Shown here: piece after piece, positions 17,315 to 35,358 of the stretch
How the letters are laid out: each line of letters opens with the position of its first letter
Position numbering within the stretch: the stretch's first letter is position 1
Source of the DNA: Marivirga arenosa
Lineage (GTDB): Bacteria; Bacteroidota; Bacteroidia; Cytophagales; Cyclobacteriaceae
DNA: 64,000 nt
Assembly: GCF_030503875.2 (NCBI RefSeq)
Contig: NZ_CP129968.2
Span: 3,374,001-3,438,000 of the forward strand
Reading direction: 5' to 3'
Translations under genes and position numbers: made by a program
Notes under the pieces: model-generated
What the model was told of the DNA's origin: nothing
Databases searched by the model: none
Seen by the model: the letters and a program-made list of their open reading frames with translations, nothing else

Positions 17315-17717
17315 GGGGTTGACCGGTATTGACGGTAAGTGTGAATTATGTATTAGCATGCAGGGTGGAGAATGTACATCCTTAAGTAATTCATTCCAAC
17401 TATAATTGGCGAATCTAATTACGCCATGGCTGCATAATCTTAAATTTTATTTAAGATAAAGCTTTAAGGGTTGAGTCCCCAAAGGGATTCCCCGGCCACA
17501 TTCCTCGTTCCTTCGTTTTTCCGGGAGCGATCAAGGAGTGTCGACTAGGAGAAACTAGCGTGGTGATGCTATTAAGCCATTGCGAAACTAAAGTAGCTAA
17601 GGCCTGCAACAGGACTGTTACTTTCCATAACAGGCTCGAAAATCTAATTAGTAACTAAGCATGTAGAAAATGCATCGTTTCCTTATCCGGACGAGGGTTC
17701 GAATCCCTCCAACTCCA
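17315..17717 (+). ncRNA. ssrA: Transfer-messenger RNA (tmRNA), tag (A)GESNYAMAA
   Basis: Rescues stalled ribosomes and tags the nascent chain for proteolysis. The tRNA-like ends are visible: 5' GGGGTTG (17315-17321) pairs with 3' CAACTCC (17710-17716) with one G-U pair, and the T-arm reads GGTTCGAATCC near the 3' end. The tag reading frame is GGC GAA TCT AAT TAC GCC ATG GCT GCA TAA (17408-17437), giving GESNYAMAA, the Bacteroidota type. The genome reads CAA rather than CCA after the discriminator A17717, so CCA must be added post-transcriptionally. Length about 403 nt. A GC-rich pseudoknot region with CCCCGGCC follows the tag. Confidence 0.96.
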
Positions 17718-17731
17718 CAATAAAAAGAAAG

Positions 17732-18782: not shown

Positions 18783-18790
18783 TACCTTTG
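18783..18790 (+). promoter_or_regulatory. -7 promoter element of the SRP RNA gene (TAccTTTG)
   Basis: Exact match to TAnnTTTG, 4 bases before the predicted 5' end of the SRP RNA at 18795. No clear -33 element is seen. Confidence 0.7.
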
Positions 18791-18794
18791 CATC

Positions 18795-18885
18795 GGCAAA
18801 TCGGCACGACCAGCTCCTGCTGAATTCCCCCAGGACCGGAAGGTAGCAAGGGTAGGCGGTCGTAGCGGTGCGATGTTGATTTGCC
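18795..18885 (+). ncRNA. ffs: Signal recognition particle RNA (bacterial small type, 4.5S-like)
   Basis: Scaffold RNA of the signal recognition particle. The terminal helix GGCAAATC (18795-18802) pairs perfectly with GATTTGCC (18878-18885). The conserved apical domain with the GGAAG tetraloop and AGCA symmetric loop is visible in CCAGGACCGGAAGGTAGCA. Length is about 91 nt. A consensus -7 element lies immediately upstream. The open frame on the opposite strand (18726-18917) is only a by-product of this RNA. Confidence 0.93.
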
Positions 18886-18951
18886 ATTTTTATTTCCCCT
18901 CTTACATTAAAAAACACATTTTATCTTTACCAACTAAGCTGAAGCAGACTT

Positions 18952-34396: not shown

Positions 34397-35134
34397 TTAA
34401 TCAATACTAATGGGTTCCTTTTTTAACCTATCCTCAATCACTTGCTCAATTTCAGGTAAAGAACTGTATAATTGTTCGTAGTCATCAATAATGAAGTACT
34501 TCGTTTGAAACTTATCCTTTCTGTAACTACTATCAATTATTTTTCCTACATCGTAATTAAAATGCTCTGGTTCATCAGAAATTGAAAATTTAGTTTCCCC
34601 TGGTGAAGAAATAATACCAGCACCATAAATTCTTAAATCCCCCTCTTCACGGATTAAGCCAAACTCAATTGTAAACCAATAAATACGACTGAGTAAATGA
34701 ATTGCCCACTCATTATCCAAATGTTTTAATCCAATTTTAGCTAATCCTTGTAAGAAGTCTACAAATGGCTGGTTCGTTAGTAATGGAATATGTCCAAAGA
34801 CATCATGAAACATGTCTGGTTCTTCTAAATAATCTAACTGTTCACGAGTTCTCAACCAAGTGGTAGCTGGAAATATTCTATTACTTAATAATTCAAAGAA
34901 TTTATCATCTTCGACAATACCAGGAACAGCCGCTACTTGCCAACCTGTTAGCTCTTTTAAATATTTATTAGTTTCCTTGAAGTTAGGAATAGCTTTTTCA
35001 GTAAAATGGATTTTATCAATTCCATCTACAAACTCCTTAGTAGCTACTTTTTTAATATTTTGAAATTGCCTTCCAAAAAGGATTCCCCAAACATCTTGGT
35101 CCTCGGCTGTGTAATTTTCATAAATCTGTTGCAT
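34397..35134 (-). CDS. phhA: Phenylalanine 4-monooxygenase (phenylalanine hydroxylase)
   Basis: Non-haem iron, pterin-dependent enzyme converting phenylalanine to tyrosine. Iron ligands His110 and His115 (MFHDVFGHIPLL) and Glu157 (IYWFTIEFGLI) are present; PGIVEDDKFFELLSNRIFP is the pterin-site region. Length 245 equals the bacterial catalytic-domain-only form. Translation starts at ATG 35134, 46 bases after the T run of an intrinsic terminator that ends a leader with a Tyr-rich ORF (35180-35358), which predicts control by tyrosine supply. It is followed by its own terminator. Confidence 0.96.
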   Translation of the reverse strand: MQQIYENYTAEDQDVWGILFGRQFQNIKKVATKEFVDGIDKIHFTEKAIPNFKETNKYLKELTGWQVAAVPGIVEDDKFFELLSNRIFPATTWLRTREQLDYLEEPDMFHDVFGHIPLLTNQPFVDFLQGLAKIGLKHLDNEWAIHLLSRIYWFTIEFGLIREEGDLRIYGAGIISSPGETKFSISDEPEHFNYDVGKIIDSSYRKDKFQTKYFIIDDYEQLYSSLPEIEQVIEDRLKKEPISID

Positions 35135-35179: not shown

Positions 35180-35211
35180 AAAAAAAGCCCGATTCCATTG
35201 GAACCGGGCTT
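35180..35211 (-). terminator. Attenuator (intrinsic terminator) in the phhA leader
   Basis: On the minus strand a 12-bp stem with one G-U pair: 5' arm AAGCCCGGTTCC (35211-35200), loop AAT, 3' arm GGAATCGGGCTT (35196-35185), then seven Ts (35186-35180). It lies between the leader ORF stop and the phhA ATG. The octamer GGAATCGG of the 3' arm is also present upstream at 35273-35266, where it can pair with the 5' arm CCGGTTCC as an antiterminator. It would also stop read-through from dnaN. Confidence 0.9.
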
Positions 35212-35237
35212 GGTATATTTTTTATTTAAAATATGTC

Positions 35238-35321
35238 TTACAAAATATGCATAACACTACCATTACCGATTCCTTTCGGGGACTGATAATAGTAATAATA
35301 TGTGTTGTGCGTGAAATTCAT
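35238..35321 (-). CDS. phhA leader peptide with five consecutive Tyr codons
   Basis: A 27-codon ORF on the minus strand, ATG at 35321 and TAA at 35240-35238. Residues 7-13 read TYYYYYQ; Tyr codons 8-12 occupy 35300-35286. Its ATG lies about 5 bases from a -7 element, so the transcript is nearly leaderless. It sits before an intrinsic terminator and the gene for a tyrosine-producing enzyme, the layout of an attenuation leader (as in the trp, his and pheA systems). Ribosome stalling at the Tyr run would leave GGAATCGG (35273-35266) free to form the antiterminator; unhindered translation would allow the terminator. Function is inferred; the ORF and repeats are direct observations. Confidence 0.85.
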   Translation of the reverse strand: MNFTHNTYYYYYQSPKGIGNGSVMHIL

Positions 35322-35326
35322 TGAAG

Positions 35327-35358
35327 CAAATATATGTTGTGATAATTATAAAACCAAA
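35327..35358 (-). promoter_or_regulatory. phhA promoter (-33 TTTG, -7 TAtaTTTG)
   Basis: -33 TTTG at 35358-35355 and -7 TATATTTG at 35334-35327 on the minus strand, spacer exactly 20 bases, a full match to the Bacteroidota promoter pattern. It begins 11 bases after the dnaN stop codon. The start site would be at or within a few bases of the leader-peptide ATG (35321). Confidence 0.85.

Follow-up and report, generated by a model that had tools for sequence, protein, structure and literature searches.

In Escherichia coli, the pheA, trp and his operons are controlled by leader-peptide attenuators, in which a short open reading frame (ORF) carries codons of the regulated amino acid, an antiterminator competes with a terminator, and the position of the ribosome serves as the switch. 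Here we analyzed a 64,000-nt stretch of the Marivirga arenosa genome (contig NZ_CP129968.2, positions 3,374,001 to 3,438,000; hereafter the window), in which a tyrosine-codon leader ORF and a terminator precede phhA, the gene of phenylalanine 4-monooxygenase. The locus is built like the E. coli systems and differs from them in the amino acid that would be sensed (Tyr), in controlling a hydroxylase gene, in its Bacteroidota promoter and in having the ORF nearly at the presumed 5' end. With high confidence, we propose that phhA is controlled by a ribosome-mediated transcription attenuator sensing charged tRNA-Tyr, its product making tyrosine from phenylalanine. The support comes from sequence and comparison: the parts themselves are in place, they recur in relatives with covarying pairings and consistent spacing, the codons are specific, and tyrA was not found in the genome.

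Codon-sensing upstream ORFs (uORFs) coupled to transcription termination have also been predicted elsewhere. In the sections of PMC8632094 considered here, uORFC-13-1 has Phe codon(s) ahead of aroF in Acholeplasma and uORFC-8-2 has Cys codons ahead of cysS in Rhodobacterales; both are alike in principle but concern other phyla, genes and amino acids, and the word stem 'bacteroid' is absent from the main text of that paper. In gamma-Proteobacteria, PhhR and TyrR control phhA and aromatic genes, and putative attenuators ahead of tyrA operons are listed for other phyla (PMC1173090, from the portion consulted). The common point is control of phhA or tyrA within aromatic metabolism; however, PhhR as described there is an activator protein that works at a sigma-54 promoter and serves catabolism, whereas here RNA attenuation would serve biosynthesis. 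In the literature searched, with subscription journals largely outside it and priority therefore unproven, no title or abstract reported a Tyr-codon leader or phhA attenuation, and no amino-acid leader attenuator was described for Bacteroidota. To our knowledge, this is leader-peptide attenuation, a known kind of control, with a new sensed amino acid (Tyr) and a new gene, and the phhA attenuator appears to be one part of a wider system of aromatic leaders.

An earlier note on this stretch, made from the letters alone, had placed a promoter, a 27-codon ORF with five Tyr codons, an octamer and a terminator ahead of phhA, and those of its coordinates that were checked are correct. The promoter fits the Bacteroidota consensus TTG / TAnnTTTG. 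The features are as follows.

35327..35357, minus strand: promoter, Bacteroidota-type TTG-N20-TATATTTG
35334-35327, minus strand: -7 box, ending 5 nt ahead of the leader ATG
35238..35321, minus strand: leader peptide ORF (predicted), 27 codons, MNFTHNTYYYYYQSPKGIGNGSVMHIL; Tyr-dense short ORFs also occur in relatives
35286..35300, minus strand: five-Tyr-codon run (codons 8-12), the proposed sensing codons, whose make-up tracks the operon product
35285..35296, minus strand: 5' arm of the 1:2 hairpin, lying within the Tyr codons (minimum-free-energy structure)
35256..35267, minus strand: 3' arm of the 1:2 hairpin (minimum-free-energy structure)
35266..35273, minus strand: antiterminator strand, octamer GGAATCGG, its start lying 15 nt downstream of the last Tyr codon's first base
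35200..35211, minus strand: terminator 5' arm, in which CCGGTTCC (35207-35200) pairs with the octamer or with the terminator 3' arm
35180..35196, minus strand: terminator 3' arm and U tract, with a second copy of the octamer at 35196-35189
34397..35134, minus strand: phhA, phenylalanine 4-monooxygenase, 245 aa, the controlled gene (NF008877 and TIGR01267, both above cut-off)

The terminator hairpin (35211-35185) has 12 pairs, 7 of them G-C, followed by T's. Its 3' arm begins with the same octamer as the antiterminator strand, and the octamer pairs with the 5' arm through 8 pairs including one U-G, both as first described; the GGAATCGG:CCGGTTCC duplex has an energy of -13.6 kcal/mol. By sequence and energy, the terminator between leader and phhA and the antiterminator are mutually exclusive. 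The five-Tyr in-frame run is unique within the window on both strands, and the whole 4.05-Mb genome has two such runs, this one included. The other (L216) was rejected as a leader: it is intergenic, antisense to both flanking genes and heads no gene. A terminator-like hairpin lies downstream of phhA at 34389-34355, so phhA is probably transcribed alone.

Folding of the 151-nt leader RNA, which the note had suggested, gave a stable structure (z = -4.6; 0/200 shuffles equally stable) with alternative pairings. In the full-leader fold, Tyr codons 35296-35285 are paired to 35267-35256 in a 12-bp stem ending inside the octamer; its 3' arm takes in the final two G of the octamer, and the loop is closed over the remainder, with the first three bases of the octamer paired within it. 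The earlier note had suggested that a short CCGA/TCGG pairing could hide the octamer when the ribosome does not stall. This detail changes: in the modeled folds the octamer would be occluded mainly by the 12-bp Tyr-codon hairpin, and by the moving ribosome under Tyr-replete conditions. If the leader is folded without its Tyr codons, the octamer is left in nothing but the 4-bp CCGA/TCGG hairpin. The ribosome was modeled as a mask reaching its front edge, with the RNA cut ahead of the terminator 3' arm and a footprint of 13 nt past the A-site base assumed from E. coli values. When the mask stood on any of the five Tyr codons, 9.0 nt of the terminator 5' arm and loop were paired upstream, compared with 5.5 nt without a ribosome and 2.5-2.7 nt with a ribosome three to eight codons further.

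From this arrangement, we infer the transcription start, ribosome stalling, read-through and the response to tyrosine. Transcription would begin adjacent to the leader ATG. When charged tRNA-Tyr is ample, the ribosome would pass the five Tyr codons and cover the octamer, and the terminator would form. When it is scarce, the ribosome would halt on the Tyr codons with its front edge just short of the octamer; the freed octamer would pair with the terminator 5' arm, and RNA polymerase would continue into phhA. If there is no translation, the Tyr codons would pair with 35267-35256, closing over the octamer, and termination would be favored.

To follow the leader among relatives, we used a family sample of 196 genomes, 130 of which have a PhhA match, and scored the DNA upstream of 122 short-type phhA genes (L006-L127; L128 was dropped, its start not being aligned). 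A leader was counted as complete if a Tyr-containing ORF had at least 4 Tyr/His within eight codons and was followed, 25-110 nt past that window, by a terminator. Such a leader was found at 37/122 genes, 30 of them with at least 4 Tyr in eight codons, and in 0/122 antisense and 0/122 in-gene control stretches. This count is a floor, as L034, L070 and L074 are leader-like by eye but failed the terminator rule. Across 166 distinct regions (the family plus 80 named loci plus second copies, with 44 of 210 rows removed: L128, L132 and L133 with starts not aligned, and 41 duplicates), the terminator was present in 57/69 phhA upstream regions with a Tyr/His-dense short ORF versus 5/97 without. In an earlier cut, the co-occurrence was 31/38 versus 3/89, with 1/38 versus 2/89 in antisense and 1/38 versus 1/89 in in-gene stretches.

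Across the phylum, 128/395 genomes had a match. Among 24 loci read outside the family (L229-L252), Tyr leaders with ATG starts, the only starts counted, were found in L237, L240 and L248, and by eye a Tyr leader with a GTG start in L247; L240, L247 and L248 have GAATCGG and a CCCG(G/A)TTC terminator arm in common with the window or its congeners. Upstream of phhA in L241, we noticed by eye a terminator and an antiterminator copy of 10 nt (GGAGTCGGGC) that follow an ORF near a promoter; this ORF has no Tyr run. The long fused aromatic hydroxylases of the phylum served as a negative control: a Tyr-rich ORF (at least 4 Tyr in eight codons) occurred in 0/20 of the 700-nt stretches upstream of 20 hand-picked examples.

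For the antiterminator we used 41 non-redundant loci, the 57 leaders minus 16 near-duplicates. These representatives were selected for a terminator and at least 4 Tyr/His in eight codons, and are therefore no evidence for either feature. We compared the best pairing of the post-run region with the terminator 5' arm and loop against 300 dinucleotide shuffles. The native pairing was better with p<=0.05 in 26/41, p<=0.1 in 33/41 and p<=0.5 in 41/41; with the arm alone, loop excluded, p<=0.05 was reached in 23/57 loci. Mean pairing was -13.8 kcal/mol with own arms versus -10.7 kcal/mol with swapped arms, a cost of 3.1 kcal/mol. The two strands change together, as in GGAATCGG:CCGGTTCC, GGATTAGG:CCTAATCC, GGAGTAGG:CCTACTCC and GGATCAGG:CCTGATCC. 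The covariation list comprises the 18 of 41 loci with p<=0.1 and a GG-N4-GG type octamer, which give 12 distinct octamer/arm pairs, two of them with position 6 unpaired. Changes on both sides were seen at position 4 (A-U, U-A, G-C, G-U), position 5 (U-A, U-G, C-G) and position 6 (C-G, A-U, G-U).

The spacing is also in line with the proposed switch. In 39/41 loci (shuffles 25%), the distance from the first base of the last Tyr codon to the start of the antiterminator is 8-20 nt, a position at which a stalled ribosome is expected to leave it exposed. A ribosome masked at the last Tyr codon frees the pairing, relative to one six codons further, in 40/41, and compared with no ribosome the gain exceeds 2 nt in 26/41. 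The run-to-downstream pairing (1:2 hairpin), clear in the window, was better than in shuffles with p<=0.05 in 16/41 and p<=0.1 in 23/41.

The -7 box TAnnTTTG is matched 6/6 in 15/41 leaders and at least 5/6 in 32/41 (shuffles 3.8% and 42%), and in 22/32 leaders with a box of at least 5/6 the gap to the ATG is 4-9 nt. Transcription is expected to start a few bases past a -7 box; if it does so here, the leader ORF would be near-leaderless. In Bacteroides thetaiotaomicron, according to the part of PMC7366714 drawn on here, only ~3.7% of 5' untranslated regions (UTRs) are <10 nt, and short ORFs reminiscent of leader peptides occur in long 5' UTRs.

We wondered whether the leader codons follow the product of the operon. 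The sample comprised 60 regions, almost all of them surrounding tyrA or other aromatic genes and mostly from the top of a match list rather than random, a few being short contig ends; gene identities came from profile-model matches for 19 distinct proteins and from tblastn for the others. A short aromatic-rich ORF and a terminator precede an identified gene in 36/60 regions (38 leaders), L306 and L313 having been dropped as weak; the 24/60 aromatic-gene regions without a leader include four other Marivirga tyrA regions (L257-L260). Codons were counted over distinct peptides in the densest eight codons. The pheA-first leaders (21) have Phe 77, Tyr 74, Trp 6 and His 0, and the two leaders that head 3-deoxy-D-arabino-heptulosonate 7-phosphate (DAHP) synthase genes have Phe 7 and Tyr 8. 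The phhA-first leaders (41) have Tyr 168, His 81 and Phe 14, and the aminotransferase-tyrA-phhA leaders (3) have Tyr 15 and Phe 2. At least 2 Phe codons were found in 23/23 pheA- or DAHP-synthase-first leaders versus 1/44 phhA-first or aminotransferase-tyrA-phhA leaders (Fisher p = 4.5e-17), the lone exception being L113 (YYFFYF); five aminotransferase-tyrA leaders without phhA, 3/5 of which have at least 2 Phe, were left out of this test.

The genome of the window itself holds both kinds of leader, YYYYY for phhA and FYFYFYY for a DAHP synthase-like gene (best models below curated cut-offs) and aroB. The latter leader (L254, MRNLQGRFYFYFYYSPLQRVGPCHVM, G000:C1 about 1556112-1555979, minus strand) comes with a terminator and a promoter-like TACATTTG, and its antiterminator lies about 13 nt beyond the final Tyr codon. 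In L269 (G027), two tandem aromatic leaders, each with a terminator, stand before aminotransferase-tyrA. Some phhA leaders are rich in His: L040, L147, L148, L150, L152, L171 (Algoriphagus type), L023, L025, L056; examples are MNPTPRTFVHHSYYHLQ and MKKKIYLNISHHHHSVQG. We tentatively suggest, as somewhat less likely than not, a code of near-leaderless leader peptides by which Bacteroidota would govern the synthesis of aromatic amino acids, in which Tyr denotes phhA or tyrA-phhA, Phe plus Tyr denotes Phe-making operons, and Tyr plus His denotes a phhA branch reading a second signal.

The physiology of the organism points the same way. Prephenate dehydrogenase (PF02153) is present in 178/196 family genomes, but was not found in the genome of the window (99.95% complete) or in its conspecific genome. 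A full-length TyrA query had no match in either of these two genomes, nor in six of seven further tyrA-less genomes; it gave a weak partial match in G011 (E = 3e-4) and clear matches in two Marivirga controls. Since no tyrA was found and prephenate dehydratase pheA is present, PhhA is probably the Tyr route of this genome, in agreement with the role first proposed for it, although a dehydrogenase of another type may be an alternative. Among phhA genomes, the leader occurs in 9/13 of those without tyrA versus 28/110 others (Fisher p=0.0025, kinship uncorrected). In the excerpts of PMC7311316 used here, phenylalanine hydroxylase (PAH) is described as biosynthetic in Echinicola vietnamensis, Dyella japonica and Legionella; PAH of E. 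vietnamensis, which belongs to the same family as Marivirga, is important in some defined media, for which the authors propose a biosynthetic role, and regulation is not mentioned in those excerpts. The likeness would be that tyrosine is made by PAH, and leaders of the Tyr/His type, with antiterminators of 9-10 bp, were seen in two sampled species of Echinicola, E. arenosa (L028) and E. pacifica (L029).

Other explanations of the hairpin and the Tyr run have to be weighed. The hairpin could be a dnaN terminator or an insulator, the Tyr ORF a chance occurrence, and the phhA promoter could lie further downstream; dnaN, which lies on the same strand, does end 47 nt ahead of the leader ATG, and an A/T-rich stretch precedes phhA. 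But a promoter-like site, beginning 11 nt past the end of dnaN (35357-35327), lies between dnaN and the Tyr ORF, and ORF and terminator co-occur far above chance. Further, the gap between terminator and phhA has no TAnnTTTG, and dnaN is upstream in only 3/41 representative leaders, so that the device goes with phhA; we consider this explanation very improbable. Still less credible, to the point of being nearly negligible, is control of phhA by a tyrosine riboswitch or T-box with an incidental ORF. A terminator and a long folded leader are present, as such an element would have, but neither this region nor any of nine related loci matched an Rfam family at its gathering score, and the best sub-threshold leader match was Trp_leader, at 21.6 bits versus 41 required.

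Attenuation might also work through an arrest peptide or a general gauge of translation speed rather than through charged tRNA-Tyr, since His codons are common in phhA leaders and Tyr runs might by themselves slow ribosomes. Yet codon identity tracks the operon product (the 23/23 versus 1/44 above), apart from the run the peptides are dissimilar from genus to genus (MNFSAQNYYYYYYYREASCFG..., MKRSFNTYYYYYYREIISW..., MLFANAYYYHYYHATP...), and phhA leaders encode Tyr by TAT (101) as well as TAC (64), which makes this possibility improbable. That many phhA leaders sense His as well as Tyr, His being prominent in the Algoriphagus type, is the least unlikely of the rivals, though still unlikely. In the run windows of the 41 phhA leaders, 84/328 codons are His and 165 Tyr, against 0 His in the 21 pheA-first leaders, and other NAY codons are not enriched there (Asn 9, Asp 0), which also speaks against sensing of queuosine, a signal that all NAY codons share, as an explanation of the His codons. 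Against dual sensing, the five-codon run of the window has no His, and in silico replacement of His by Tyr slightly lowers the run-to-downstream pairing, from 13.1 to 12.3 nt (34 loci, p=0.009), so some of the His codons may be there for RNA structure; the effect is too small for structure to be the sole reason.

Several points weigh against tyrosine-sensing attenuation as we propose it. The His share of the phhA run windows is one, and Tyr is the minority in Algoriphagus-type leaders, which pure Tyr sensing does not explain. The antiterminator has p>0.1 in 8/41 loci and is still strong without a ribosome in about a third, and 4/13 tyrA-less genomes with phhA have no leader. The earlier note had expected a Tyr run and terminator in relatives, which held for the 37 family genes above and failed for 85/122, which have no leader directly upstream. 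Of these 85, a long ORF precedes 15 within 60 nt and 18 within 61-200 nt, and some leaderless phhA genes sit in aminotransferase-tyrA-phhA operons that start with a single Tyr leader (L263, L271, L294); but for 52/85 no long ORF ends within 200 nt, which means that operon membership cannot account for all of them. Moreover, the loci are not phylogenetically independent, and the counts overstate their independence. Weighed together with conservation, covarying antiterminators, spacing, codon choice and the missing tyrA, these points leave the attenuation first suggested for phhA, ribosome-mediated and Tyr-dependent, as the reading supported on computational grounds.

Elsewhere in the window, a transfer-messenger RNA (17315-17720) and a Bacteroidales small signal recognition particle RNA (18787-18890) are ordinary. 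No hydroxylase match was found among phage records; PhhA relatives with 42-45% identity (L002-L005) are on contigs classed viral in IMG/VR.

If true, the phhA leader would give an example from Bacteroidota of ribosome-mediated attenuation that senses tyrosine. Control by Tyr starvation would mark the phenylalanine hydroxylase as tyrosine-making rather than phenylalanine-degrading, a distinction that annotation cannot decide. Echinicola vietnamensis, a relative with published mutant-fitness data, makes this reading testable. As leader codons follow the operon product, leaders can help to assign function across the phylum, and if the leader code is true, the product of an operon and the biosynthetic role of its hydroxylase would be predictable from sequence.
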